A stretch of 64,000 nucleotides of DNA from contig OX467084.1 in NCBI GenBank assembly GCA_950106755.1, forward strand, positions 37,141,213 through 37,205,212, in the 5' to 3' direction. The stretch is from Climacium dendroides (taxonomy: Eukaryota; Streptophyta; Bryopsida; Hypnales; Climaciaceae). The notes below the pieces were generated by a model. It did not search any database, had not been told where the DNA came from, and saw only the letters and a program-made list of their open reading frames with translations. Of the stretch, positions 3,898-62,817 are shown one piece after another. The stretch's first letter is position 1; every line of letters starts with the position of its first letter. A program made the position numbers and the translations under genes.

Positions 3898-5724
3898 AAA
3901 CAATACTACAGGAAAAAAAAAAGACAAATTGTCATAGAAAATAATGAGGTATAAATTGATAATAAATAGAAAAATCATGACCAAAAAAAACTAAAAATTG
4001 GTTGTTTGAAAGGACTTGATGGTGATCAAATTTCACCAAAAAAAATAAAGTTGACACCTTCTTCAATGTTCAAAAGTGCTCATACAAGGGAGTCCTATTT
4101 CCACAGATCCAAAGGACATAAAATAATATATTTTTAAATAATCTTTGGTAGGCATATGTCCACCTAGTGTAAAAATAAACCACCAAAATTTCAACTCTAG
4201 ATCATTCAATTTGGGTACTCCGAACATAGTGAAAACCCCTAAATTTCAAATGTGATAAATTAAAAAAATTGCCTTTTATATATAAAATAATTTTTTTTAT
4301 TTCTAAAAAATAAGGGATCTAATGACTATCAAATTCTTAGGACTTGGGATTCAAAAGTTATACTAAAAGGTAACAACGTCACTCCAATTGTGACGGAGAA
4401 TAGGACCAATGTTTTTTGCAATGACCTATGACATATAGGACAAGTGTAGATTTCAAACATTTAAAAATAGTATATATTTCAAAAATCTAGGTCAATTCTA
4501 CATTTCAGATTGCACAATCTAAACCATAAAAACTACAAATGTAGTGGAATGGCATTTTTGTAATAAAAGTGCCTATATACATTGATAGTGTTGATAATGG
4601 GTTCTCAAATCTTAATCATTTAGGTGGTTTTACCTTAACTTCTAAAGGACCAAACACTATTTTTTGGCAACATATTGATTTTGGGTAGCTCACTACAAAA
4701 TATGAACTAAATTTTTATTTTTTTCTTTGAAATTTTTACACAAGATGTGTCCAAGGAATAGCTTTAACCCTGGAGACCTAGGACCTTTTTGGATTTATAA
4801 ACATTATTGCTTTTGAGATGTGAAGTGTTTTAGTTCAAAATGTCAGAAAGCTATAGAAATTTCAACCATACAGTCTTGTAGTGTACTTATTGTAGATGAT
4901 GTGAATAAGATTTGGAATCATTTGGCCACATAGATTGCAAGATTGTAATGTTCAAGTGTAGAAAATACATGTTGAAATTTTCCTAGCAACACATTTGGAG
5001 GTGAAACTAATTTCTAAACCTACTCCAAAGAAAAAATTTGAAACTGTAAAGTAATTCAATACCAACATACAAATATACTGGTAAAAAAAATATCATTGAA
5101 TTGATCCATTGTGTTTCTAAAAAGTGGTTTTGAAATGTCAAAAAATAAGAAGAAAATTTAGAAAAAAAACATTTGAGGTTGGACTTCTTTCTATTACAAA
5201 AAATCTCAATCATCATAACTTCTTGGATTGATATGAAATTTTAGCCACACAAACTAGACTAGTATACACAACTTTTCCAAAAACAATTATTAGAAACAGA
5301 CATTGTATGAAGAAAAAAGTCGCCAAAGTTCACTGTAATCCAAAAATGTCAATATTTTGAACTTTGAATTACTCCCAAACATTCAAAACAACTTGGATTG
5401 GCATAAAAAATTTACCACAATAACTAGACTTCAAGAAGAACATAATCCAATAATTTTTTATTAAAAACAAATATTGGAGGAAGGAATACAAGCCCCCAAA
5501 TTTGCGGCCATAAAATATAGTTTACTGAACTCAATTCAAACTTCGATTGGCTTACAAAAAATCAGTAGTACTAGGATTGATCTGATAGTTTTACCACAAA
5601 CTAGTAGAGAGTGCAAATTTTCTAAACAATTTTACTGAATTCAGACATTGGATGTAAACCAACAAAAGTAACATCACTTTAAATTGAACTTGAAACTACG
5701 TGAGGATACTTTTGGTTCCTTTGG

Positions 5725-17700: not shown

Positions 17701-18800
17701 CTATAGGCCAAAAATTAAAGGAAAAATATAGTAAAATATCAAAAAAGATTTTAAAACTACCCTATTGAAATTGATCAATTCTTGCCCTTGGAAGTATTGC
17801 AAATGTTTTGCAATTATCTCTTGGAAATGTGGAAACAATTGTCCTACACTCCAAGATCCATCAAGTTCTAATGCCAGCCTCCAACAAATCATTGCTTTTC
17901 TAGCATAGGACATGTTGTCACCATCTACCTCTCGATTAACATCTTCTACACTATCAACAGCCAATTGTAGAAAAAAACGTTTTCCAAGATTTGTCAACTT
18001 TCCTAACCCATTGTCCATCTGCCCGGGGTGCATTTTGCCAAGCATTTTGTTGTATCAACTTAATTTTCTTGACTTCCCACTATCTTGTCCATACATCTTT
18101 GATTTTTGAAATGAGGAATGTATCTGCTGGTTGGTAAAGGTGAGTAGAACATGGAGGTAGAAATTTAAGAACTGTGTTTTTGGCAATTAAGACAGCAGCT
18201 AATCTAGAGGTCACAGAATGGCCGATACAATTATCAAGTTGTATGATCTTCATGTGTTGATGAAGATTGGCTTGATATGCACAAGGTTCCAAAAAGTATT
18301 CGGAGAAGATGGTTTGGTCCATCCAACTTTTAGGACCCGTTCTATAAGAAACCCTAGGAATATTATCAATCAAACCATGTATAGGATACCTCCTATTTTC
18401 ATTTGAGAAAATGAGCATAGGAGTTTCTACTGTGGTACGATGGCCTCCTGAAATGCGAACCACCATGGTCATAGACTCCCCACCCAAGACAACTTCACCG
18501 TTTTTGACAATTGTATCTCCCTAAAACCCTAAAGTTCGGCCATTATCAAGATTGACAATGAAATGCATTTCATCCAGGTTTTCTATGAGATTTTCATCAA
18601 ATTCCCTGAATGAAAATCCCCTTCATAAGACCTCTAAATGGTAGGTGGGCTGCATTTCGATTTGAAGCTCTTTTTTAAGGCTACAAGTCAAACGCCCACG
18701 TTGGGATAGAAGGACTATATTGTAGTTATCCATAAATTGATTGACCCAATTCGTTGTGATTTTGTTGACCAACAAAACTTTGTCTTTGGCATCGATAGAA
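17701..18800 (-). pseudogene. Pogo/Tigger-like DDE transposase pseudogene
   Basis: Minus-strand reading in order: TNWVNQFMDNYNIVLLSQRG (end of the DNA-binding region), LDEMHFIVNLDNGRTLGF (first catalytic Asp region), SMTMVVRISGGHRT, TIFSEYFLEPCAY, KIIQLDNCIGHS (second catalytic Asp), LKFLPPCSTHLYQPADTFLI (third acidic residue, DDD type) and KIKDVW. This is the DDE_1 layout of pogo/Tigger/CENP-B-like transposases. It is broken by TGA at 18625-18623, TAG at 18523-18521 and TAG at 18082-18080, plus a frameshift in a T-run near 17975 after which AVDSVEDVNREVDGDNMSYA continues. The N-terminal HTH is missing. Dead copy. Confidence 0.8.
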
Positions 18801-38832: not shown

Positions 38833-41732
38833 TTGGGGAGAGAACCAAAAAGCTTGTAATATGCGTTCACACGGCGTGTGGTCGTGGTGAATAAGCCAAT
38901 GCTTGAATCGCGAAAGAGGAACTCAACGGTCTGGGGTAGGTCCGAGTAGGTCAAGTTCGAAACTATAAGTGTGTCCAAAACTACTCTTTTTCTCATTTTA
39001 CACCTTTGCCCTTTTTTCATCATTCACCTTCACACTTTAGTCTGTTGTTTGTCTTACTTCAATGTTGTTTTGTTTGAGTGTTGCCGTTGGTTTTTTATTT
39101 TGTTATTATTGTTGGGCGTTCTATTTTTTTTCCTTTAGAGCAGGAAGACTTGTACTTGAAGCATGAGTAATGATGTCTCTGGTATGTCTTTCTATTCAAA
39201 ATGAGCGTCAATTTCTACAACCAATTTTTTTCCTCAATAAACCCTAATGTTTTAATGAAATTGGGTGTCAAGAATTCTGTCTAAACCCCCAATTGAATGA
39301 CCCCCAACTTAATGACTCCAATTTGATGGACCCAATATTGATGAACCCAAAATTAAAGATCTATTTGAACATCTACCTCTAATTAAATAATTTAGAGCAA
39401 TTTGGAACTTTCTTTTCGTTTTAGGCTTTCTTTTTGTCTTTTACGTTTTCTTTTCACTTCTACGTTTTTATTGAGTTTGCCGTTCTTTGCTTTCTTTTTG
39501 CCTTCTGCGTTGCGTGCGCTTTCGTTGTCTTTGTTTTATTTTCGCCTTTTATGTTGCGTGAATTTTATGGTTTTGTCGTGTGCTTCGTGCTTGCTTGTGC
39601 GTTTCTGCTATGGCATTTGTTCTGTCCTCTTTTACCTTAGAGAAAGGGTTTTCATGTTTAGGCAACCTATGCTATTGTGGGAGGTTCATAAGAGACCTAA
39701 GGAGGTTCCAAACGTGGTTCTTGAGGAGGTATTCACTCCCGTCGAGGTGTTGGCAGTGGAACTGCAGGCAGCGCTACAGATAAAACTATAGGCAGCGCAG
39801 GTGAAGGCAGAGCTAGTGACGGCAAAGCTAGATGCCAAAGTGTAGTTGATTGAAGACAAGTTGGCGAATGTTACTTTGTTGCATGATGGAGACATTACTG
39901 TTTTTGTAGTACCATATGTCAATATATTAGTAGGTGACATCTTTGTTTCTAATGCTAAGTTTTTGTGATTTTTTTTACTTGAAATGAATTTACTATTCGG
40001 CAATGGAGTAACGGGTGGTTCTACCATATTGTGCAAGAAAGATACTGGCATGGGTGGCAGATTTTGAGGTTGAGTTGACTTGAGGATAAGTTGGCAGAAA
40101 CCCTGATGTGAGAAGAACCAAAGTCTTCAAACGCTACAAAGACTCCATTAGATGTGCAGGTGTGTTCAAGAAGTCTTACGTGGACTATGTGAACATAATC
40201 CATAATGTATTTGAGATTCGAAATATGTAAGCTCATTGGAGGACCGAAGCTAGTTTAGAAGTTATCGTGGCATTGGCCAGAAACCTCATTAATAGATTTC
40301 CAAAGTTGTTTGGGAAAAACCAAATTAATGAGCTTACATATTTCGAATCTCAAATACATTATGGATTATGTTCACATAGTCCACGTAAGACTTCTTGAAC
40401 ACACCTGCACATCTAATGGAGTCTTTGTAGCGTTTGAAGACTTTGGTTCTTCTCACATCAGGGTTTCTGCCAACTTATCCTCAAGTCAACTCAACCTCAA
40501 AATCTGCCACCCATGCCAGTATCTTTCTTGCACAATATGGTAGAACCACCCGTTACTCCATTGCCGAATAGTAAATTCATTTCAAGTAAAAAAAATCACA
40601 AAAACTTAGCATTAGAAACAAAGATGTCACCTACTAATATATTGACATATGGTACTACAAAAACAGTAATGTCTCCATCATGCAACAAAGTAACATTCGC
40701 CAACTTGTCTTCAATCAACTACACTTTGGCATCTAGCTTTGCCGTCACTAGCTCTGCCTTCACCTGCGCTGCCTATAGTTTTATCTGTAGCGCTGCCTGC
40801 AGTTCCACTGCCAACACCTCGACGGGAGTGAATACCTCCTCAAGAACCATGTTTGGAACCTCCTTAGGTCTCTTATGAACCTCTCACAATAGCATAGGTT
40901 GCCTAAACATGAAAACCCTTTCTCTAAGGTAAAAGAGGACAGAACAAATGCCATAGCAGAAACGTACAAGCAAGCACGAAGCACACGACAAAACCATAAA
41001 ATTCACGCAACATAAAAGGCGAAAATAAAACAAAGACAACGAAAGCGCACGCAACGCAGAAGGCAAAAAGAAAGCAAAGAACGGCAAACTCAATAAAAAC
41101 GTAGAAGTGAAAAGAAAACGTAAAAGACAAAAAGAAAGCCTAAAACGAAAAGAAAGTTCCAAATTGCTCTAAATTATTTAATTAGAGGTAGATGTTCAAA
41201 TAGATCTTTAATTTTGGGTTCATCAATATTGGGTCCATCAAATTGGAGTCATTAAGTTGGGGGTCATTCAATTGGGGGTTTAGACAGAATTCTTGACACC
41301 CAATTTCATTAAAACATTAGGGTTTGTTGAGGAAAAAAATTGGTTGTAGAAATTGACGCTCATTTTGAATAGAAAGACATACCAGAGACATCATCACTCA
41401 TGCTTCAAGTACAAGTCTTCCTGCTCTAAAGGAAAAAAAATAGAACGCCCAACAATAATAACAAAATAAAAAACCAACGGCAACACTCAAACAAAACAAC
41501 ATTGAAGTAAGACAAACAACAGACTAAAGTGTGAAGGTGAATGATGAAAAAAGGGCAAAGGTGTAAAATGAGAAAAAGAGTAGTTTTGGACACACTTATA
41601 GTTTCGAACTTGACCTACTCGGACCTACCCCAGACCGTTGAGTTCCTCTTTCGCGATTCAAGCATTGGCTTATTCACCACGACCACACGCCGTGTGAACG
41701 CATATTACAAGCTTTTTGGTTCTCTCCCCCAA
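38833..41732. repeat. Near-perfect palindrome, two 1.4-kb arms
   Basis: The left arm 38833-40237 is repeated in inverted orientation at 40327-41732, separated by 89 bases. The arms translate almost identically; for example GQRCKMRKRVVLDTLIVSN reads on the minus strand at 39023-38724 and on the plus strand at 41541. Differences are a handful of single bases, such as CGTGTT versus TGTGTT classes and one extra G near the outer edge. Each arm holds short, stop-broken coding relics with coiled-coil character (LEEVFTPVEVLAVELQAAL, LIEDKLANVTLLHDGD), perhaps retroelement Gag. The near-identity implies a recent inverted duplication. Confidence 0.9.
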
Positions 41733-43287: not shown

Positions 43288-44944
43288 TCAAGAACTAAAC
43301 ACTGATCTAGCGGCCCCCTGCACCTGCCGGAGCTCGGCAGCTCGGGGTCTCTGGGCCTTGGACTGCGCAAGCATCTCGTCGTAATTCCGTTTCTCCATGG
43401 CGATTCCGCGGGGCTCTATGATCTTATCTGCAAGGCCGTAATCGATGGCCTCCTGTGGCCTGAAATACTTGGGTCTGCGGATATCATTGACGATCTCTTC
43501 CCTTGACTTGCCAGTTCCTGTAGCTAACAAATCTATGTAGTAGTCCGTATTGGCATCCAGCTCTCTGCCCTTGATCCACATGTCTGTTGAGGACCCGCTC
43601 GACTGGTTCACCTTCGGTGAATATAATTTGGTCGAAGAGCTGGGTTGAAGCGCAGCCCTTCTCACCAATTGACAGAAGCATCGCTGCCTGGCCAAAGGCT
43701 TGGCCACAGTTGATGGTGTACACTTTGGACTTGACGTACCTGATGGTATCCGCTATGGCGTAAGCTTCAGTCTCAAAACCAATGCTCTCTTTCTTCTCGT
43801 TTTGAGTTCCGGACGAGTTGATGTAAAAGTAAATAGGCTTGCTCGGATTGTCGAAGTCCAACCACAGAAGCTCAGCAATGATGAGTTCCGTGACAGCAGG
43901 CACTATAGCCATCCCCAAGTAGCAGATGCGGGCGTCGAGAAGCAGAGAAGGAAGATCTGGAGGAGCCGTCTTGGGCCGCCCGCCGGCGCTCCCTCCTCCT
44001 CTGTACATACTCACACTCATGCTCAACCTAGAAGGTGCACCGTCTAGCCCTGCTGCGTTCCACATTCCAGTACCTAAATATACACCCAAAAAAAAACCCA
44101 CCACGCATAAGAACAAATCACGTATGACCGCTAACCATCAACCAACAGCATAACCTGTGAACTATTCTCTAAGCACACGAGCTTAAAAGCAAACTGTGAA
44201 GCACAAACAAAACTACTGATAAATTCAACTGCTAACATTGTAACTGTATACTAACATGAACACAATATCCTACACCCTAATTATGAAAAGCTTAAGAGTA
44301 CCGAAATCAAAAGTGTTATACGTGATTAGTTTTAAATTTTAAATTTTCGGTTTCGAGAACCTTCAATGAAATGTGAAGAATCCTTGCAAAACAGAAAAAC
44401 TTCACAACAGTGGATAGGCACCTGAACTGGATAAGGTTGCGAAGGATAAATTGATAGAATGCCCTCTAATTCAATTCTACATTTCTGCAAGACAAACTCG
44501 TAATAGTCACTTCGCCTTTAAGAGCTTTAAACCCCAAGGGTTCATAATCTTGGTGAGCTTAGGGTCAAGAAGAGATTTGAAGAAAAGGCATTCTTACCTT
44601 CTTGGTAGCGATTAGCGGAGGAAATCGAAGCCTCGGTGACGCGCTCGGCTTGTCGCTGATAGGGATTATTCTCCACCATGAACATGTCCATCTGGGAGGG
44701 GCTCAACCCAAACACACTCGAAGTTCTTCGTCAACCCTTCCTTGAGACCATCCTTCCTGAACTGCTTCGGAATGTGGTCCAAGCTCCCACCTGCGCCCAC
44801 ACTCCCGCAACCCTACTCTCTGCTCTCCTGCACCTCGGCAACCCCTTCTGCCCCTTCCCGCACCCGAACACCTGCGACCTCTCCCCTCCGCAGGCCCGAG
44901 GGCGCTCCCACCACGCCCTGCGACGCAGCCATGGCCACCGCCAT
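43288..44944 (-). pseudogene. CLPR1-like: CLPR1-like plastid Clp protease subunit, decayed copy
   Basis: Exon 2 (44073-43288) carries GGRPKTAPPDLPSLLLDARI, CYLGMAIVPAVTELIIAELL, PIYFYINSSGTQNEKKESIG, TEAYAIADTIRYVKSKVYTI, NCGQAFGQAAMLLSIGEKG, then, in another frame, LQPSSSTKLYSPKVNQSSG, DMWIKGRELDANTDYYIDLL and AIDYGLADKI. Exon 1 (44944-44598) holds DHIPKQFRKDGLKEGLTKN and GLSPSQMDMFMVENNPYQRQ in different frames; the intron uses GTAAG and TTTAG. These blocks match plant ClpR1 of the chloroplast ClpPR core. ClpR subunits lack the catalytic triad, and no Ser-containing GQAASA motif is present here (GQAFGQAAM instead). Defects: a deletion shifting frame near 43655, another near 44708, and TAG at 44815-44813. 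Sequencing error could explain single shifts but hardly all three. Confidence 0.82.
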
Positions 44945-49562: not shown

Positions 49563-49609
49563 TTTTTGTTGCTAGCCCTATATGCAGTTTTCACCAATGC
49601 TATGAGGAA

Positions 49610-50760
49610 TGCTGGTATGTGAGCAGGGAGTGGCGAGCGAGGAGTAGGGAGTAGGAAAAAGTGAGCAGGGAGTGGGGATTTTAGGAAAAAAGACCCCTAC
49701 CTACTCCTATTACCGTGAAAAAGGGTACCTAAAACCGTGTAATAAGTTTGTTCCAAAAATATTAAATTTAAATTTTTTTTAATCGAATTCTGATCTAAAG
49801 CCATGGGATTTGGGAAGCTTAGATCTATAGCTATATAATATAAGCATTATGATCATATAATTTCAGACATTTAAAGTCTTCTACAAGAGCAAATAGTAGA
49901 GATAAGAGAATAAAAAATGATTTATTAAAATTTCATTTATGAAATTTAAGAGACCCTATTACCGTATACTTGTCATAAAATTTTAATTTATATTAAAAAG
50001 GGAATGTAAAGCCGCAGATTATTAAAGAAATTTGGATACTTAATAAAATGATGGTTTATAGTTTTAATAAAAGTAGAAGGAAATCTATGACTATGAATTT
50101 TTGTCATTTAAGACATTAGATGTTTTTGGGGGCATTTAGAAGACTATGGATTTTCGAGTTGTGGGAACTTTGGGAAGGCTACTATGTAGGTAGGCTCACG
50201 TTGTTGAGAGAATATCATGCTAGATTTTACTATCTTTTTAATTAATTATTAAATGTTTTTTAAAAATCAGTTTTCACTTTCAGTACTTTCTGATTTTTTT
50301 TTTCCTCCAAAAAATCAGACCAACAGTTGTTGGTTTACTGCACAGTGAACAGTTTTAGGGAACAATCCTAAAATAGACTCCTACAGAGCTAAAAAACATA
50401 TAATGCTTATAATGGAAACATCAAGTAGTTTAAAAAAATTGAATGAAAAACTATAATGCTACAATACCACCAAAAAAAAGACATATATAGTTATGGCATA
50501 ATATTGCAACCGTTATAGATTATAAGCAATTGTGAATCGTTTATAAACAAATCTTTTGTTGTAAAAATTTACACAATGAGAAATTGAATACTCACCAAGA
50601 TAAGAAGATACAATAAGTTTAAATATGTGGGTCACTTGGATATAGCATTCAACATTTAAAGCACACAATCAAATGCCTGTATAATATATATGATAGAGCA
50701 AATGCCATAAGATTAGAGGGCAATTTAGAGCCACAATAGTGAAATACACCGAAAAATGAA
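49610..50760. other. No gene; short GAGCAGGGAGTGG repeats at left edge
   Basis: 49619-49680 has GAGCAGGGAGTGGCGAGCGA and related words repeated three times. The remainder is AT-rich with no credible exon. It lies just downstream of the methyltransferase-like gene, but no terminal inverted repeat matching the far side (62.8-63.2 kb) was seen. Confidence 0.4.
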
Positions 50761-51699
50761 AACCACTCAAAGATCACCATTAGAGTTTAAGTCACTAGAG
50801 GTTGAACCTTCAATCTCAAATTCCTCTCTTTAATCTACCTCTATATCCAAGAACTCCTTTACCTTTGGATTATATTGAAGCTTTCGTCGATTCACTATTG
50901 GAGATGGAGCATCAATATATGCTTGAGCAATCTTCTCTGCATAAACTAGGAGAATGAAACTGAAAGGTGGACTCTACTCATTTGCATCTTGTACTTGCTC
51001 TACTACAGTGTCTCTGCAAGTCAAGAAAAAAAAGGTTAGTAAAATACAATGTAATTCAAATATTTTCATAAAATGAAAAATGGTGACATAACAAATGAAT
51101 CACAACTTACGCACAAGAGATGAATCGATTCCTCTTTGGCTTCTTTGTAGGTGGTTGATCAAGCGGTGGGGTAGTGGCTTTGTTCTTGGTTGTAGGAATA
51201 GAGGCTGTAATAGGGGCAAACGGGGCAGTCATGGCCTTAAAAATGAGAGGATCATCTTCTAAAGCTAAGATGTGCCACCCAGTCTCCAAACCAGCCTTGA
51301 TGGATGAATCTGTTGAAAAACAAAAGATACATGAATAAATTATGAAAAATCAACTCCAAAGAATGATAAATAGAACTTAAAATTGTAGAAGGAAAAATAC
51401 CTGTTGCAGCTTTGCAATCAAGGACAATATCTCCGGGCTTGCAAAATTGTAGGATGAGATCTTGCATAAAGGATAAGTTCTTCTCATGTGGCCCTCTCCA
51501 TGGAACTTTCTCGTTCATAGAAAGGTTTTCAATGTCCGTAAGATTGAAGAGAGCATCATTTTTCTCTAAAGGCTCACCATCATAAGAAGAGTCACGGTTT
51601 TCTTGGAATGAAAATCGTGAAGGAATCTCCCGCCGAATGAACAATTAAATCCAAAATTGAACAGACTGGAAACATCAAAAAGTTGAATGTTAAAAAGAA

Positions 51700-52485
51700 T
51701 TGTATCTCAGAAATTACAATGTCAAGGGAACTACAGAAATTTCAGAAATTGCAATGTCAAGGGAACTATAGGAATTTCAGAAATCATAATGTCAAGGGAA
51801 CAACAGAAAATTCAAAAATCACAATGTTAAGGGAACTACAAAAATTTCAGAAATTACAATGTCAAAGAAATCACAAAAATGAAGGACTTTAATGTTTATT
51901 TTAGAGTAGACTTTAACAAACTTCCTAAAAACTACCCACAAACTAAAACTTACAATGTCAAAGGAAATTTCAGAAATTACAATGTGAAAGACATCATTGA
52001 AATTACAATATCAGGAGAATTACAAAAATTTCAGAGATCACAATGTCAAAGAAATCACAAAAATGAAGGACTTCAAAATTTGTTTTAGGATAGATTTTCT
52101 ATAACTTCCTACAAACTTCTCACAAACTAAAACTTACAATTTCAAAGGAAATTTCAAGAATTACAATGTCCAAGAAATCACAGATATTACAATATTAAGG
52201 GAATTAGAAAAATTTCAGAAATCACAATGTTAAAGAAATCACAAAAATGAAGGACTTCAAAATTTGTTTTAGGTAGACTTTTTGTAACTTCCTACAAACT
52301 AAAATGTACAATGTCAAAGGAAATTTCAGAAATCACAATGTCAAAGAAATCACAGAAATTATGATGTCAAGGGAATTGCAAAAATTTCAGAAATCACAAT
52401 GTCAAAGAAATCACAGAAATTATGATGTTAAGGGAATTACAGAAATTTCAGAAATCACAATGTCAAAGGAACCACAGAAACTTTT
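51700..52485. repeat. Intronic tandem repeat, ACAATGTCAAAGAAATCACA family (copy array 1)
   Basis: About 800 bp of irregular head-to-tail units, mixing ACAATGTCAAGGGAACTACA, TTTCAGAAATCACAATGTCA and AAAGAAATCACAGAAATTAC. Larger units also repeat, including ATGAAGGACTTCAAAATTTG and ACTTCCTACAAAC. It fills nearly the whole 867-bp intron (51627-52493) between the motif IV-like and motif I-like exons. ORFs in it (NVKGITEISEITM-like) are repeat translations. Confidence 0.85.
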
Positions 52486-54669
52486 TCATTTACCGTTAGT
52501 GATGGGTCCCGTGCAGATGCAAGATGTAGCTCATCGATTCCCCACCAATCTTTGGCCAACTTCATGTCATATTGGTCAGCCAACTCATCAACTTCTTTTA
52601 GCAATCTTCGATCATCACAATGTATGAGTAGGAGGGCACCGTCATCATGCAAATACATATCTGCCATCTCGAAAAGAGTCTCAACGTAGTTCTCTTTGCG
52701 CTTGTTCCACTGTGGAATTGAAGTTGAAATACTTGGAACAGGTAGATTCTCTGGAATATTTGCAATGATCAAATCAAGCCCTGTATGCCTGTATTCCTTG
52801 CAAAAGTTGGATGTGACAGTACGATTGCGAGTAGCACTAATATGCACATTTCATACATGTAAAGTTGGAATTAAAACCTTTAAATTAATGGCATAAAAGA
52901 AGAAATGTTGGAATTAAGTTGAGAATACAATACCTTAGCTATAGTATCATGCAACCTTATCCATTGAGGATCAGGGCCAGTGGGCTCTTGTAAACTATTC
53001 AAAAGAGTGCTGAGAAAAGTGCACTCTACAAAGACATGAAGGGAGTCCTTAGGCTCTATCATTGAAGAGCTGGCTGAAGGAAACATGAATCCTTTCTTCT
53101 TTCGAATTCGGTTACCAATAGCATAAACAACATTCGATAAAGAGGAATCTGAAGCAGCAGGTGCAAGGCCATCATCATGGCCTTGGTCTGACATGGTGGT
53201 AGTCTCATGACTATGTGAAGGCACGGCTACAAGCTCATTTGCTTGAGACTTCTCTCTTTCGGCTTCTTCTTTCTCCGCCTTTTCTTTAGCCACCCTCTCC
53301 ATCTCTTCCTTCTTTTTCTTCGTAAGCCGCTTTTTCTTTGGTGCCTTCTCTTGTGGTTGATTGACTTCTTCTGCATCGTCAGGGTCAAGAAGAGCAAGTT
53401 GTCCACCATCAAGAGTTGTCCTCTCTGCAACCTTTGAGTCAGAGGTGTAATTTCGATGACAATCAAGGTACCACCTTCCCGCTTCCAAATGTGTAGCATT
53501 GAACTTCTTCAATTGCTCAAATGTGAACATGTAAAGATCATAGTCTTTTTGCAACCAAGAAAGGAAAAAGGGTGGTATGGTTTCTACTGAAATTGTATTT
53601 TTGGCAAGTAGAACCCGCATGAAGTACTTGAAGTCAAGGAGACAAATGTCATAATCGGCAAGTAATTCATGAAATAAAAAACAATAAGAACAAACAAAGC
53701 ATCATCAACTTCTAGAAGTAAAGGTAACAAATAGGAACCCAAAAAATAAGAAATAATAAAAACTACATAATAAAAGATTAAAGCAAGTAGATAAGTGCAA
53801 TAGTATGGTAGTACCTGTATACAATACGTCTCACTGCGCTCTCAGTTCCAGGGAACTCTTTAAATATAGACTTCTTTGTATAGAGTTTCAAATCTTTGTT
53901 TCCAAAGAACGGGATAAATGCTTTGTCCCAAAGCAAAATGCGCCAACTCTCAATATAATTAGAGGGCTTTCGAACTCCTTGTATGGTCCAATCTACGACA
54001 ATGTTTTCATCTTTGCAAATATTTGTAACCATCTTAACAACCGCCTCCTCCATCTATTAAAATGAAATGAAGAATGTTAAAAATACAATAAAATGAATTC
54101 ATAATAAATGCAAAGAAAAAAATGATTTTTGGTCACAATACAATACCTCAGCCCCCAAAGATGCTTTGTTGATCCAAAAATCTCAAAAGAGGTCCTCATC
54201 CTTGGATCTTGGAAAGCGATAAGATTGTCGAATTGTCAACGATGCATTCCACCATCTTAACCACCGTGCCTTGTGTTTTGCTTCAATGTTAGCGGTGGCA
54301 ATTTTTTGAAGCTTTTCAATTGTCATTTCAGGATTTGGATTTTTACTGAAGTGTCGATCAATTTGAGCACACAAAAACATTTACGTTAGATTGAAATGAA
54401 GCAATATATATAGATAAATTTAGATATTACAAGTTCAAATGGAGTAGAAATGAACTCATACCTCTTTGAGAAATTCATTTCCGTTCTTTGGATTTGCCAC
54501 CGCTAGGTATTTGTCATAGTCTTTGGCATGAACGGCCTTGACAAACTTGTCTGAGGCATTCTTCATTGCTTCCCAAATGCCTGGAGCAATCCTCTCTTGG
54601 AGTGGTGTCCGCATCGTGTACTTTCGAGCTGCTTCATCGGCGGCCACTACAATCTCCCACTGCAATTGA

Positions 54670-55430
54670 AAATCACAGAAATTACAATGTCAAAGGAAAT
54701 TTCAGAAATTACAATATGAAAAGAAATCACAGAAATGACAATGTTCAGGGAATAAGAAAAATTTAAGAAATTACAATGTCAAAAACACAACAGAAATTAC
54801 AATGTCACGGGAATTACCAAAATTCCAGAAATCACAATGTCAAAGAAATCACATAAATAGAGGACTTCAAAGTTTATGGTAGAGTAGACTTTCTATAACT
54901 TCCTATAAACTAAAACTTAGAATGTCAAAGAAAATTTCAGGAATTACAATGTCAAGGGAACTACAGAAATTTCAGAAATCACAATATGAAGGGAACTACA
55001 CTAATTTCAGAAATCACAATGTCAAAGAAATCACAGAAATGACAATGTTGAGAAAATTACAAAAATTACAATATCAAACATCATAGAAATGACAATGTCG
55101 AGGGAATTACAAAAATTTCAGAAATCACAATGTCAAAGAAATCACAAAAATGAAGGACTTTAATGTTTATTTTAGAGTAGACTTTAACAAACTTCCTAAA
55201 AACTACCCACAAATTGAAACTTACAATGTCAAAGGAAATTTCAGAAATTACAATGTGAAAGACATCACAGAAATTACAATGTTCAAAACATCACAAAAAT
55301 TACAATGTCCAAAACATCACAAAAATTACAATGTCCGAAAAATCACAGAAATTACAATGTCAAAAAAATCACAGAAATTACAATGCCAAAGGATTGTCAA
55401 AGGAATTACAGAATTGACATATAAATGTTG
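54670..55430. repeat. Intronic tandem repeat, same family (copy array 2)
   Basis: The same units as at 51.7-52.5 kb fill the 802-bp intron between exons 55657-55462 and 54659-54462. They include an almost identical larger block (ATGAAGGACTTTAATGTTTA then TTAGAGTAGACTTTAACAAA, at about 51880 and 55150). Expansion or exchange between two introns of one gene is implied. Confidence 0.85.
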
Positions 55431-56961
55431 CAAGAAAAATAAATTGGAAAGATGGTTGTACCTTATACAAGAAGGAGATGAAGACATTGACCGTCAAAGA
55501 AAACCAACTTAGTCTCATTGTCTTCACCTTCTCACAATATTGGTATTCTTCAAGAGAGATAAGGTCCTTGAAATCAGCAAGAGGTAGAACTCCAAAATTT
55601 CTAATTCGCCGCAATCGAGCTGGAATTGTACTCTTCACATGATCATGCTCAGTAGACCTACACATTACACAATGCATTTGCATGAGAATGAAATCAAATT
55701 TCATGGCAATGAATTCATATTTTGATCCAATGTAAATAGAACAAGAAACATACTAGTTAACATCACTCATTGCATTTAGCAAGTTTGCCACTTGACCTCT
55801 TGGATCAAGTATGATGCAATGGACTCATTTGTGCCAATCAAGTTCTGTAGGATGATAGTTGGTGATGTGTCGCATCCATGCCGAGACACGATGATTTCCA
55901 TCCCAAACATAAAACATCTTGCCTCTGAATTGGGCAAGGTCTTTATTTGCCCTCAACTCTTTTTCAAACTCCTCATTTACATGTTGCCAATGAAGACTCC
56001 ACCTTGCAATTTCTTTTTTAGTCATGTCCATAGTTTTTTCGAAATTGTTGTATGGTGATATGTATAGAACCTGATCACCATCTCGATAGCCATTCATGAA
56101 CTCACTCTCCAATCTTTGAACATCCATTTCACCAATTGGTCAAACCTCGTCCATAACAATCATTCGACAAAGAGGTATATGCAGGCGTGATTTAGAAATT
56201 GGTTGGATACGCAATGTGTTGATGAGTCCTGTAGTGTCCACTTTTAGCTATTTGCGGTGGAGTTGCTCGCTCTCCAATACACTGTTACATCAGGTGGACA
56301 TTCACGTCTTAGTTCATCATTTTCAGATTGAAGATCCATAGATGCAACCTTCAAAAGAATGATAGATAAAATAGCATTAGAGAAGTTTAAGGTAAGATTG
56401 TAAAGAGAGTGATTTACATTTAAAACTCCTTCCTTTGAATAATTGTACATACACAAAGTAATGGAAAAGACATAAAGTTGAGAACGTGTAGAAATTTCAT
56501 TTACCTCAACAATCGGAGGTACAACTCTTCCTGTTTCTCTTATAACAACCCTTTCACCATCATTGTTGTTCTCACCTTCTTCCTCCTTGACATATATGAT
56601 TTCAGTTTCTCCTTCTTCATTCATCTGATTGGTTCAAATCATTGAAGAAAACTTGACATAAGTGTTCTATTATATGTGAATGAAGATGAAAGGAAAATGA
56701 ACTCATTCTTAATCCTTGTTTACACCACCGTAGTATACAAGTAAGACAACACAAATATAACAATTTTGACAACTGAATTCCTAAATCATCTCAAAGCTCT
56801 AAAAAATTTGCACAATGCATATTGAGTTTCGTTTGAATTGAAGTAAACAACTAAAATTAGCTAAAAACTCATTCTCTTAGAAAACTAGAGAAGCTACAAG
56901 GAAATCATAAAATGGCATCTTTTCTCAAAGTTCAGCCTAAAGTAGTATAAGTTATGGACAA

Positions 56962-57601
56962 CCTCGTCAACGAGGACTAAATGAGGTGAGTACAATTCAA
57001 ACCAAAATATTGGCATTGGTACAAAAAAGGTGTAGATATTGTCCTTCAAAATAATTATGTTAAAAACAACCGAAGAATCTTAGCATTTAAAATTAGATTA
57101 GAAGTTGTTTTGGGTGTCCTCGTCAACGAGGACTCCCCGAAATGGTTGTGTCTAATTCAACCTAACGATTTGAGTAGAGAATGTGCAATTTTATGTTTCC
57201 TCGTCAACGAGGATTCCCGAAATGGTTGTAAACAAACCTACAATTATAGAATTCTTGATTAAAGTAGGCGCAGTTTTGGATATCCTCGTCAACAAGGATT
57301 CCTGAAATGGTTGTAAACTAAACAACGATCGTCACACTATTGATTCGAGCGGGCGCAGTTTGGGGTATCCTCATCAACGAGGACTCCTCGAAACTACAAG
57401 TCCTGAAATTGTTGCCCCCCAAAAAATGCACAAAACTCCTAACAAAAAATGATAGAACCCAAAAATTGAAGAATGAACCTCAATGTTTGGCTGAATGTCT
57501 TCTTGCGTTCCACGCAAAGCCATCGCCGAATGCACTACAAACTCTCCCTCCTCCATCTACAGCATGCAATTAGTACCAACGATAACGCCTCGTCAACGAG
57601 C
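56962..57601. repeat. Six copies of a 14-bp palindrome at ~83-bp spacing
   Basis: CCTCGTCAACGAGG (inverted repeat CCTCGT-CA-ACGAGG) occurs at 56962, 57118 and 57199. One-base variants are at 57284, 57369 and 57588. Consecutive spacings 81, 85 and 85 bp come from a diverged tandem unit that also contains CGAAATGGTTGTAAAC. The array lies in the 1.6-kb intron between the first two exons of the ParB-methyltransferase-like gene. Confidence 0.85.
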
Positions 57602-58610
57602 ACTCACCCTTTTGCGCCAAACCCTAAGCAACTTCGACTCGCAGTTGGATTGGTTTGCAATGTTGGCTTGAAAAAAAAAAAAAAAATATAAAATTGGTAG
57701 ACTTTGGCCAGCGCTTTATCTTGAATAGCATATATGATTTTGAGTAATTTCGTTCAAATTTTTTTTCATACATAGATTATAACCTTACAGTTGTTTCCAA
57801 TTTTTTTTCAGAATTTTTAGACTCACCAGACACCACTAATTTTATAGAAATCCTCAAAGTTCACAAAAAAGTCCGCGGGCAAGATTTGCCTAAAAATCTT
57901 CCGATTTTGAAGATTTCAGACCAGGCTCCAATATGCTGAAAACGTTTTTAGGCCATAAAACATTTAATAACTATCCGTTTTTTATGTGCCATATACCATT
58001 GGAATCGTCTTTTGTAAATACACAAGAAGGTCTATGCAGCTCTACCAAAAAAAATTCATACTAATTCAACGAACCACCTAATCATTTTGGTGTCTACTCT
58101 TCTACACTTTCAAGCATCTACTAGCTTCGTTATGTAATTAACCAGTAAATAGGTATTTAACAAGTGTTCTTCTAAACAAATTCTCACTACATCTTATTTA
58201 AAACATCAAATAATATGATATACTTACCAAATCTTGTCTATTTTGGGCAAGTTCTTCGCTATCATCATCACTCTCGTCCTCGCTTTTGCCCTTGCTCTGG
58301 TCATCTTCTTCGCCATCTATGGTGTCCTCATCTCTTTCAACCATAGGTAGTGGTTCTTCAATAATCTTATCAAGACATGAATAACCGTCACCAACAATGT
58401 CGGTCACTTCTTTGTCATCAAAATGAAGTACTTTACACGTCTCACCATAGTTATGCTCTCTTCTACCTAAAATTTTGGCCCTTCTCATCTTAGCTCTTGA
58501 TCTTTCCTTCGGAGTTGTGTAATATAGTTTACGTCTTTTTCTCTTCTTTTTTATCAACCTACTTGCAATCTAAGACTTAAGGATGTTGATTTCTTCAAGC
58601 ATCTGATCTA

Positions 58611-59656: not shown

Positions 59657-62600
59657 ATGGTAGACTTTATAGAGATGGCTATTGTGAGGGCAAATGGTGA
59701 AGGGATTCTAATAACGTTTCTAGTAAGCAAAGAGGGATTTGCTGTGGTTTCTGCATTTCGATTAAGTCTTAGGTTCCAATTGAACGAGAAGTCACTTTAC
59801 ATTGATGTAGAGGTGTTTGATGACCATAGTGGAGACCTTACTCACACAATTGGTCAAGTCCTTGCTTCAAATGGTGTTGGTAGATTGTGGCATCTGAAAT
59901 CTGGTCAATTTAGGGTATATGGATTGCGTGAATCCATCATGGTAACTTCTACGAGCGTTTTTACACCTCGTCAGTCCTCTACGTCCTCTCTTGAAACAAT
60001 TCCGACAACACGAGTCAAATTAAAGTCTGATTTGAATGATGTCACCATTCTAAGTGATGATTCTGATGACAATTCTTCCAAGCAACTGCAAAGCTCTAAG
60101 ATTCGATGTTCTGAGTTAACTTTGCCGAGCTCTAGTATTTTGCCAACCTCAAGTAATTTGCCAAACTAAAGTACTTTGCCAACCTCAAGTACTTTGTCAA
60201 ACTCAAGTACTTTGCCCAACTCTAGAACTTTGCCCAGCTCTAGTACTTTGCCCAGCTTTAGTACTTTGCCCAGCTCTAGTACCTTGCTAAGTTCTTATGA
60301 ATAATTATTTGTCAATCCCTTTAGTAGCAACGAATCCATTACATCTGTTATTGATTATTTAAGAGAATTGCGTACATTGAAGGGATGTAAAAATGTCTTG
60401 AAAAAAATTGATTATGACACTATTACTATTCATAGAGTAAGTATATTACCTCCAACTTTCAATGGGGATGTCATTTTTGAGTTTCCACCACCTACTACCT
60501 CCACTGCTCTATCTCAAACTAAACAAATGACTCGGATGGATAAGCGGTATGATGGCCATGTTTGGTCTAAAACTATTACAACAAATATAACAAATACCAT
60601 GGGGTTAGCATTCCGTACATCTTCATGTGTAGGACATCTTCAATGCATCAATCCGGGCTATGAGTTCTTTAGTCGTATTCATCGAACCAAGCTTGTCAAT
60701 GAACTAGAATGGGAAGGGTTCACGCCATCACTATTTGAAGTAGGAAGTGCACATCCTCAAGGATCAACACTTGTTTGTAAATTATGCAAGCAACCTCCAT
60801 CCTATATTGTTAGGTGTTCCGCAAGGGTATATTATGTATTTAGAAAACAAAACTTCTCTCGTACATTTGTACATCTTGGCATTTATCAACATCCTGTCAA
60901 AGATGGTGAACTCAAAGACATCAAAGAGCGAACCCTTTTTCTTATTGGTGAATAGGTGGAGAGAACACCAGTTGCAACAAACTCTTCAATTGTGTTGGAG
61001 GCTACAAAAGAGCTTGTGGGAGAACTATTGCTATGTCCGAATGGAGTTCTAGTGAAGACCCTCAACATTGATGAGCTTCTTCCAGCTCTTGACAAGTACA
61101 AATACTTCAGCTACCCAAGTATTCAAAATGAGGTAACTTCATTCAAATACCTAAGGAGGTTTGGATTATGGATAGCATTACAAAATTGAAGGGGACAAGC
61201 ACTTGGGCATTTGTTTAGGAGAGTAAATTTCTAGGGCAAGGATCGGATATGGATAAAGTTTTTGTCTTCAAAATGTCGGAAATTGGACCCGGTAGTGGAT
61301 TAGACTTGGTCAAGCGAATGCAACCTAGCGGTGACCTTCAAGATACTTGGTTAATGTTTGATTATGTTAAACGTGTTAAGGGTTGGACTACCATGGCATG
61401 TCATGTCTACGACTCCATGTATTGTCGCATTTTAACTATTGTTGTTTGTAATATGCAATCTAAAGACTGCGCTGTTCAAATTGTATTATGGAAAAATTTA
61501 AATTCAGTTCTTACAATACATGGTATATCTCACCCTAAATTCAAGGAATTTATGGATGATAGTACCCAAACAAATTGGAATGCTATGAGGACAATTTATG
61601 GGTCAGGCGACATTCATGTTCCAATGGAAAATCAAGAAAGGACTTGCCTTTGCCATTGGACTCAATTAATGGAAAAGCATACAAAAGCTGATATTCGATT
61701 AGACTTACAAGATCAACATCGTTTGCTATGCAAACAATACAAGAATGCTATTTCCTTTGAAGAATCTGAAACTCGATATGTTGCCATCAAAGCTTGGTGG
61801 TTGTCATCTGGTGCTACGACAGAAGAAGGACTTCATCGATTGGAACTTTGGCTATCGTTCTAGCATTTCCGTTACCACCAATGGGGAAGATTTGAACAAC
61901 TTATAAGTATCTATTTTTCATCAATTCTATTTTAAATATCTATTTGTTTAAATCTATTTATAGCAAAAAATTCAAATTTAGTTTTATAACCATTATTAAT
62001 CAGTTAGACAATGTATGTATTGTATCCATGATTTCACTACAACTCTTATAAGTATTATAAATAGATCATCAAAAATAATATGAATTATTATTTATTGCAT
62101 TATTTATCAAACATTTTATATTAAATTAGAGACCAAGAATCCTTGTCAATGACAATAATGAGATTTGAATCTTCAATCACTTTATTTTTGTAACATTAAA
62201 AGTAGACATAATTTAGCATGTCTTGCCACTTCATCAACGACAATGACACGGCTTAACCTCCTCTCCTAGTTCTTTGATTAATAAATGACATGAACTAAAG
62301 AAGAGGTCTGTTTTCTTTGTCTTTGATGATAGAAAGTTTATTGTCTTTTTTTGATTCATATTATAATTTTCTTCTTACTTTGATTATTAGTTATACTATG
62401 AACATTAATAGTAATAATGTAATACTTACAATACATTTATATTTTTTCCTAACAAAATTTTCATTTTTGCTTTCATTGTCATTTCAGAATCTTAGTAAAT
62501 CTGAGCTCGCAAAAATGCCTTCTTGCAATTTAGCTGAAACTGTCCATAACAAGTGGCTTCAACAATCTGGAAATCGAAGAAATGATTTATATATTGCCAC

Positions 62601-62817
62601 TGTTGATGACTATGTAAGAAACTTCATGCAAATGGTCAAGTATTATCAATATCTTAAAGGCAATCAAGTTGGAACATGACCTGGAAAGGAAGAATTGTTA
62701 CTCCGAGTTGCCCAATGATCAGCGCAACGATTAGGGAATCCAAAGGTGCTCACTGAAGCTATGTCCAACATTCCAGAAGTGAAGGAGTTTCTCAATACAC
62801 TACAAGAGATGTGGGTA
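59657..62817 (+). pseudogene. MULE-like transposase gene, broken
   Basis: One frame runs from ATG 59657 to about 61165. N-terminal part of unknown type; a Ser/Leu/Pro heptad repeat; then YDGHVWSKTITTNITNTMGL and SSCVGHLQCINPGYEFFSRI (C-x5-C zinc cluster of GCM/FLYWCH type, common before MULE catalytic domains). After a shift: DMDKVFVFKMSEIGPGSGLD, TWLMFDYVKRVKGWTTMACH, KFKEFMDDSTQTNWNAMRTI, NQERTCLCHWTQLMEKHTKA (C-x-C-H-W). A separate exon at 62488 follows acceptor TTTCAG: NLAETVHNKWLQQSGNRRND, MQMVKYYQYLKGNQVGT. Probable catalytic Asp residues sit in MFDYV and FMDDS; the Glu is not fixed. Stops at 60167, 60301, 60953, 61216, 61861, 62677 and 62716. Identification rests on pattern memory, not a search. 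Confidence 0.6.
60110..60297 (+). repeat. Coding 21-bp tandem repeat (SSTLPxS heptads)
   Basis: About nine units of CTCTAGTACTTTGCCCAGC encode (S-S-T-L-P-x-S) repeats inside the transposase-like ORF; two units carry TAA in place of a sense codon. A Ser-rich, flexible linker that varies in copy number is likely. Confidence 0.8.

Follow-up and report, generated by a model that had tools for sequence, protein, structure and literature searches.

A split gene joining ParB-like and DNA-methylase-like domains accompanies the transposase of a DNA transposon family in the moss Climacium dendroides

The window analyzed here is a stretch of 64,000 nucleotides from the genome of Climacium dendroides (assembly GCA_950106755.1, contig OX467084.1, positions 37,141,213 to 37,205,212, forward strand). 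Its minus strand carries a split gene of 12 exons (approximately 57556-50767), in the order ParB-like domain, coiled coil and beta-class DNA-methylase-like domain, referred to below as the ParB-methylase gene. A reading made from the sequence alone (the original prediction) had described it as a single intron-rich gene of a plant mobile element. The observation is confirmed: all of the peptides quoted were found on the minus strand in the order given (IPLCRMIVMD, VWDGNHR, VHCIILDPRG, TGLDLIIANIPE, KPGDIVLDCKAATG and HILALEDD). The interpretation is supported as well, in that both domain claims and the mobile-element claim hold. Here we present a description of the gene, its relatives and its surroundings, according to which it almost certainly serves as accessory gene in a DNA transposon family of autonomous type, with a transposase as its partner.

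Exons were placed with related copies as guides, and splice sites, mostly GT donors and AG acceptors, were judged by eye. Exon 1 (57479..57556, MEEGEFVVHSAMALRGTQEDIQPNIE), the putative first coding exon, was likewise placed by eye and is followed by a GT donor. Exon 2 (56505..56624) encodes an acidic N-terminal segment with 92.5% identity to the related copy L010, and exon 3 (55754..56348) the ParB/Srx-like domain with DGNHR (domain frame 56241-55756), whose fold is assigned from relatives. Exons 4 (55462..55657), 5 (54462..54659) and 7 (53815..54053), identified by comparison with relatives, are linkers, as is exon 6 (54147..54362), the acceptor of which has changed from AG to AA. Exon 8 (52934..53627, start approximate) encodes a charged, coiled-coil-like segment with 143 matches in the genome. 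The methylase-like domain is divided between exon 9 (52494..52841), which holds the motif-IV half, reads NIPE and has lost its acceptor AG, and exon 10 (51401..51665), which holds motif I, GDIVLDCKAATG, as well as PHEK, the counterpart of PREK in relatives. Exon 11 (51111..51309; SSIKA...HILALEDDPLIF), also placed by comparison with relatives, continues the S-adenosylmethionine-side region, and exon 12 (50767..51013) encodes the C-terminal segment with an acidic tail and ends in TGA. The D of ATG-DSSIK in the window stems from an altered splice-junction codon (TG-SSIK in relatives).

The window copy is decayed, with four in-frame stops across the nine core exons (two in exon 3, one each in exons 6 and 10) and two more in exon 12 ahead of its end. 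Compared by eye with L010, it shows a 7-base length difference just before the ParB domain and two altered acceptor AGs. Tandem repeats of the type TTTGACATTGTAATTTCTGTGATTTC, with units of 26, 35 and 61 bases, fill the introns at 51707-52480 and 54670-55390. Of the range first proposed for the gene, 50767..58610, the low coordinate stands, being the end of the stop codon, but no exon was placed in 57557-58610, a homologous stretch common to other copies.

The gene lies in a DNA transposon of approximately 14.4 kb with terminal inverted repeats and two genes, the ParB-methylase gene and a divergent transposase. One terminal inverted repeat, GAGGAATGCTGGTATGTGAGC, is located in the window at 49604..49624 on the plus strand, to the 3' side of the ParB-methylase gene, where homology between copies ends sharply and the flanks differ; GTGAGC/GGGAGC subterminal repeats lie inward of it. 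The window did not yield the other end of this copy. A decayed and truncated transposase copy, recognized by comparison with relatives, occupies approximately 59657-62795 on the plus strand, so that the range originally proposed encloses the gene but falls short of the element on both sides. An 18-base tandem repeat of 9.8 copies (60119-60295) forms a Ser/Thr/Leu-rich stretch in this transposase remnant.

Both ends were read in the L027/L033 element (C1:43188759-43203126, 14,368 bases). The ends of the family, GAGGAATGCTGGTATGTGAGC and CAACGTTGCTAGTATGTGAGC, are 21 bp long, alike at 15 positions and accompanied by GTGAGC-type subterminal repeats. Of eight further subfamily 1 copies (the window type) taken at their expected far end, seven were compared: six show the end and L042 does not; L046 has an end-like sequence at its far end, its near end lying outside the comparison. 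Target-site duplications accompany all seven copies with both ends (four with an exact 10 bp, two with an exact 9 bp and one agreeing at 9 of 10 positions), whereas none could be read by eye for the subfamily 2 copy L020/L034. The range given for Mutator-like elements is 8-11 bp (PMC6446971, in the passages available). With inverted repeats, target-site duplications, a transposase partner and many copies, the mobile-element claim is strongly borne out.

The L033 transposase-like gene, on the strand opposite to the ParB-methylase gene, has an open frame of 781 residues. Four aligned transposases have in common the block MADSAxANWNAxR...HW and a C-terminal C-P...C-K-H; C-x-C is complete in three of the four, and three carry the candidate first catalytic D (N in L033). 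We take MADS...C-x-x-H to be a MULE-type block, C-x-C...C-x-H to be a SWIM-like motif, and the residues named to be candidate catalytic residues. With these motifs, 9-10 bp duplications and terminal inverted repeats, the elements resemble MuDR/MULE transposons, from which they differ in that the moss transposase has no match to PF10551. Pfam yielded no match for the L033 and L047 proteins, this MULE domain included, and none of the 60 PF10551 matches in the genome overlaps (by eye) any of the 150 transposase places. The elements are therefore called Mutator-like, with the superfamily left open.

The coiled-coil exon occurs at no fewer than 143 places in the 412.6-Mb genome. A constant order, from the ParB domain through the linkers and the coiled coil to motif IV and then motif I, is kept in 11 of the 12 loci compared (the twelfth, L017, is a 387-base fragment with the coiled coil only), and the last exon has a tblastn match in ten of the 11, being found by eye in L019. 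Four subfamilies were distinguished: the window type (subfamily 1), L011-L016 with L020 (subfamily 2), L018 with L019 (subfamily 3), and L048 (subfamily 4), found beside a transposase with an open frame. In L048, ten exons can be spliced into a stop-free reading of 1105 residues that begins with the ParB exon and runs to the stop codon; this length excludes the first exon with its ATG. Its donors are GT in eight of nine introns; the second intron (near 5270) starts with AT, reflecting either damage to the donor or an uncommon class of intron. Subfamily proteins are 36-57% identical over the ParB half and 36-55% over the methylase half, and since exon order is the same across subfamilies and the L048 reading is free of stops, order and frame have been kept despite this divergence. 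The claim of a single intron-rich gene thus stands.

Within L048 (4250-8652, compared with L019 and L012), the ParB half is nearest to subfamily 3 (57%), whereas the methylase half (44-45%) and the transposase (60-61%) are closer to subfamilies 1 and 2 than to subfamily 3 (39% and 49%, respectively). These values suggest that subfamily 4 may be a mosaic in which halves were exchanged between elements.

The pairing of the two genes was counted for 138 of the 143 coiled-coil places and all 150 transposase places, with a limit of 30 kb. A coiled-coil exon lay within this distance of 46 transposases, head-to-head in 45, and 36 of these 45 pairs were spaced by 7.7-10.7 kb. Subfamilies 2 and 3 have the head-to-head layout too (L034, L035). 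In subfamily 4 (L048, L047) the gene lies upstream of the transposase (open frame of 1259 residues) on the same strand, so the pair has survived a change of orientation. The remaining 104 transposase places had no coiled-coil match within 30 kb; the one among them that was examined, C1:35768786, has a diverged ParB-methylase gene outside the list of coiled-coil matches. By sequence comparison, then, the ParB-methylase gene and the transposase show a standing partnership in four subfamilies. Six transposase places share an identical score of 406.1 bits, which hints at recent movement. Seven others, on both strands of C38:16100451-16779756, have an identical score of 389.6, as in recent local duplication.

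Among the 24 copies scored (L048 set apart), only L010 has core exons free of stops, so most copies in the genome are decayed. The ratio of nonsynonymous to synonymous substitution rates (dN/dS) between L010 and L031, which represent two branches of subfamily 1, is 0.13 overall; taken exon by exon it is 0.092 (ParB), 0.147 (motif IV), 0.091 (motif I) and 0.258 (C-terminal) (one between-branch pair, simple Nei-Gojobori counts, stop codons skipped). These codon counts show purifying selection between the two branches, and because the ratio is low in the motif exons too, the methylase half appears to be kept by selection despite its altered catalytic letters. Within subfamily 2, whose copies are decaying, the ratio is 0.38, and 1.02 for the motif-I exon.

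In sequence, the C-terminal half holds as a beta-class N4/N6 methylase-like domain with a putative Rossmann fold, as originally proposed. The spliced L012 protein matches PF01555 (N6_N4_Mtase) with 29.2 bits against a cut-off of 26.7, all six members of a set of relatives match it at E up to 1, and the joined motif-I and C-terminal exons of the window reach 16.9 bits (E 0.006), under the cut-off. A profile search of the Protein Data Bank (PDB) with the methylase half returned DpnA (E 0.002) and CcrM (E 0.008), the alignment pairing RGPREK...GDIVLD...TG...GRHILALEED with the motif-I side of the methylases, and PHROG methyltransferase families match this half also. Motif IV precedes motif I, which is the order of the beta class; motif IV was placed by eye, the profile matches covering mainly the motif-I side.

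The key residues of both motifs are altered. In this genome motif IV reads D-I-P-E, D-C-Q-E or D-V-P-E, and motif I reads DCKAATG, DWNASTG, DCTTSTG or DCAAATG in the four subfamilies, without FxGxG. The change had been predicted from NIPE and CKAATG; it extends to the relatives, but NIPE itself is specific to the window copy, the remaining subfamily 1 copies reading mostly DIPE. Metagenomic relatives were found by alignment searches with single halves (the spliced L012 protein, used as a protein query, had no hit). The motif-IV expression matched 39 of 53, each with D-x-[PQ]-E-[NG]. D-x-x-E is seen in three of the 14 left over (P0009, P0033, P0049), and motif IV could not be read in the remaining 11, several of these being pieces that hold the PREK side only. 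DPPY, DPPF, DPPW, NPPY and SPPY are absent from all 53, so the restored DPPY for which the original prediction had proposed looking was not found, in agreement with its suggestion of a binding or divergent role. Because no restored DPPY was found and dN/dS is 0.13 in one between-branch pair, the protein is probably a conserved binding protein and not a classical methylase.

The alternative that fares best is an active methylase half that uses the divergent D-x-P-E and modifies the DNA of the element, another base or RNA (for example as protective N4C or N6A). It would account for the first D of motif IV, kept in 39 of 39 matched relatives, for an invariant PREK block and a conserved R-H-I-x-A-x-E block (six sequences), for the motif I of one metagenomic subfamily (DVNAGVG, a G-x-G without F), and for the strong selection on the methylase exons in the one pair measured. 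However, every readable motif IV has Glu in place of the aromatic residue of DPPY/F/W, none of the 53 proteins has a canonical motif, and FxGxG is missing from the four subfamilies of this genome; on these sequences we consider such activity rather unlikely.

For the ParB half, the structure predicted from an alignment of 125 sequences (mean predicted local distance difference test, pLDDT, 88) shows a ParB/Srx fold at the N-terminus: four strands and two conserved helices in the order beta-alpha-beta-(helical insert)-beta-alpha-beta. It matches ParB and sulfiredoxin structures, as the claim of a ParB-like domain would have it; Foldseek E-values are weak, and the leading rows are nearly all from the ParB/sulfiredoxin superfamily. 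Viral ParB proteins and a phage protein named DNA methylase are among these weak matches. An earlier prediction from 12 sequences (pLDDT 51) gave no significant structural matches, which the deeper alignment resolved. In profile searches of Pfam, NCBIfam and PHROGs, no direct match to ParB rose above noise: ParBc is not among 25 of the 33 Pfam families listed as matches, and the commonest PHROG match, the ParB-like phrog_1033, was found for 38 of the 125 sequences with a best E of 0.024. Nor did a profile comparison of the ParB alignment with the PDB bring up a ParB protein, the best match (E 0.038) being a ribosomal protein. The combined check by profile and structure proposed at the outset thus yielded the ParB/Srx fold and the N6_N4_Mtase profile but no ParBc among the families listed.

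The G-x-x-R motif of the domain is GNHR, with N120 and H121 invariant and G119 and R122 conserved in at least 90% of the 125 sequences; its counterpart in ParB is GERR. Such conservation within DGNHR would also suit a ParB half that is itself the active enzyme, a nucleotide-regulated nickase or nuclease that aids excision or integration while the methylase half acts as a scaffold holding DNA. We regard this as unlikely, as the transposase has what we take to be candidate catalytic residues of its own. Precedent exists in ParB-superfamily domains with nuclease and NTPase activity, one of them fused to an adenine methylase (Bce_0392), and nicking activity is described for ParB in a methylase fusion (PMC5512222, in the portion available).

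A gene captured and carried passively (a Pack-type passenger without a role in transposition) is very improbable: MULE-type elements tend to pick up fragments of host genes (PMC6446971, as far as available) and many copies are decayed, but the two genes stay together in four divergent subfamilies and the one measured pair has a dN/dS of 0.13, for which reasons passive capture was rejected. Endogenized viral DNA of the giant-virus type, which the weak structural matches to viral ParB proteins and the phage DNA methylase might recall, is scarcely credible and was rejected because of the 9-10 bp target-site duplications, terminal inverted repeats, two-gene content and many dispersed copies; in viral contigs, the two patterns tried with the methylase alignment hit 199 stretches, none of which was confirmed as a relative.

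The reading of the gene as a transposon accessory gene is extended by palindromes, which, like the standing transposase partner, go beyond the original prediction. Six near-palindromes of the form TCCTCGTNNACGAGGA lie in the window at 56961, 57117, 57198, 57283, 57368 and 57587 (56961..57602, without strand), either within intron 1 or immediately 5' of exon 1; 12 other subfamily 1 copies have 3-11 each, and the palindromes of this subfamily sit in an 85-base tandem array. The subfamily 2 form, CATTCGGCGCCGAATG, occurs 0-6 times across eight loci (none in L013 and L034), the GGGGTAGCNNNNGCTACCCC-like form of subfamily 3 twice in L035, once in L018 and not in L019, and the subfamily 4 form, CCTCTCGGNNCCGAGAGG, five times in L048 and three times in L047, beside the transposase. 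Each subfamily has a form of its own, placed in noncoding sequence 5' of the ParB-methylase gene. In a test that covered the forms of subfamilies 1, 2 and 4, with up to two mismatches, no match was found in 9, 9 and 11 loci of other subfamilies, respectively. Counts over whole stretches exceeded all 20 shuffles for subfamilies 1, 2 and 4, not for subfamily 3. In the leader regions, chosen post hoc, 0-3 of 100 shuffles reached the observed counts, with the caveat that eight such palindromes occur in one of the 31 control tiles drawn from the window (mean 1.61). By these sequence counts, the gene is preceded by a cluster of palindromes specific to its subfamily.

Between the two branches of subfamily 1, the DNA around the palindromes has no full-length alignment (flank identity 0.39 and 0.45), and the palindrome is kept in both. 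Because sites were picked by matching, the palindrome identity of 0.88 is biased and only the flank identity is informative. That each subfamily examined has palindromes of its own suggests a possible self-recognition system, and a functional link between protein and palindrome may be inferred by analogy with ParB-parS and VANC.

On balance we lean, if only slightly, towards the whole explanation that this is an accessory gene whose protein recognizes palindromes and protects a control region. The protein would be a sequence-specific DNA-binding factor that engages the palindromes of its own family through the ParB-side module, with loading that may be nucleotide-driven as in ParB, and the methylase-like half might serve as a scaffold binding DNA or protein. 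The complex could keep the control region open against host silencing, as VANC does for VANDAL, or assemble the transposase there. For this part, palindrome binding together with anti-silencing or transposase assembly, the analogy makes a plausible case that falls somewhat short of probable. ParB, the nearest example as regards the fold, binds palindromic parS and forms a clamp in a CTP-dependent manner. More tentatively, by the same analogy, the system might be a eukaryotic counterpart of ParB-parS, in which each subfamily protein loads on its own palindrome array beside the promoter, spreads as a clamp, marks self DNA, resists silencing and recruits the transposase; the two-gene element differs from ParB-parS in having no ParA gene.

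The closest likeness among worked-out systems is to the VANDAL Mutator-like elements of Arabidopsis: both combine a transposase with an accessory protein and, on the moss side by analogy, family-specific short noncoding repeats with sequence-specific self-recognition. VANC binds to short, tandemly arranged motifs in noncoding parts of its own VANDAL elements and causes these to lose methylation (PMC10398659, PMC13317346, in the passages available). Demethylation is a feature of VANC, and the accessible text of PMC10398659 mentions no ParB or methylase fold for it. Prokaryotic and phage fusions of the Bce_0392 type likewise join a ParB/Srx domain to a DNA methylase, from which the moss gene differs in its length of about 1100 residues, its 10-12 exons, its long linker and coiled coil, its altered motifs IV and I, and its eukaryotic transposon context. 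Fungal DNA transposons with TET/JBP dioxygenases (PMC12730594) and Mariner elements with methyltransferases (PMC3627910) also carry a gene for an epigenetic-type enzyme, but the enzyme families and transposon superfamilies are others, and ParB is not mentioned in the available part of PMC12730594. A literature search gave no report of a ParB-methylase gene in a plant transposon among its top-ranked results, subscription papers being mostly outside its reach.

If the ParB-parS-like reading is true, protein and palindrome would co-diverge, each subfamily controlling its own copies only. A prokaryotic partition fold and a methylase-like region acting jointly in a plant transposon would offer a second, structurally unrelated answer to the problem that VANC solves, that of recognizing and protecting one's own copies alone. 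Pairs of subfamily protein and palindrome can be swapped in vitro, a direct route to testing self-recognition. The methylase-like domain, with its catalytic signature replaced by an equally conserved D-x-P-E, is a candidate for a pseudoenzyme or for new chemistry.

Further features of the window, outside the element, are a fragment of another transposase (18080-18520, minus strand; DDE_1, PF03184, E 8.3e-10) and a ClpP/ClpR-like protease subunit gene (43288-44137, minus strand). That gene (43484-44134 by a narrower range) and the split genes are in keeping with a plant. A nearly identical open frame of 146 residues, present on both strands at 39686-40126 and 40438-40878, marks a long inverted duplication.

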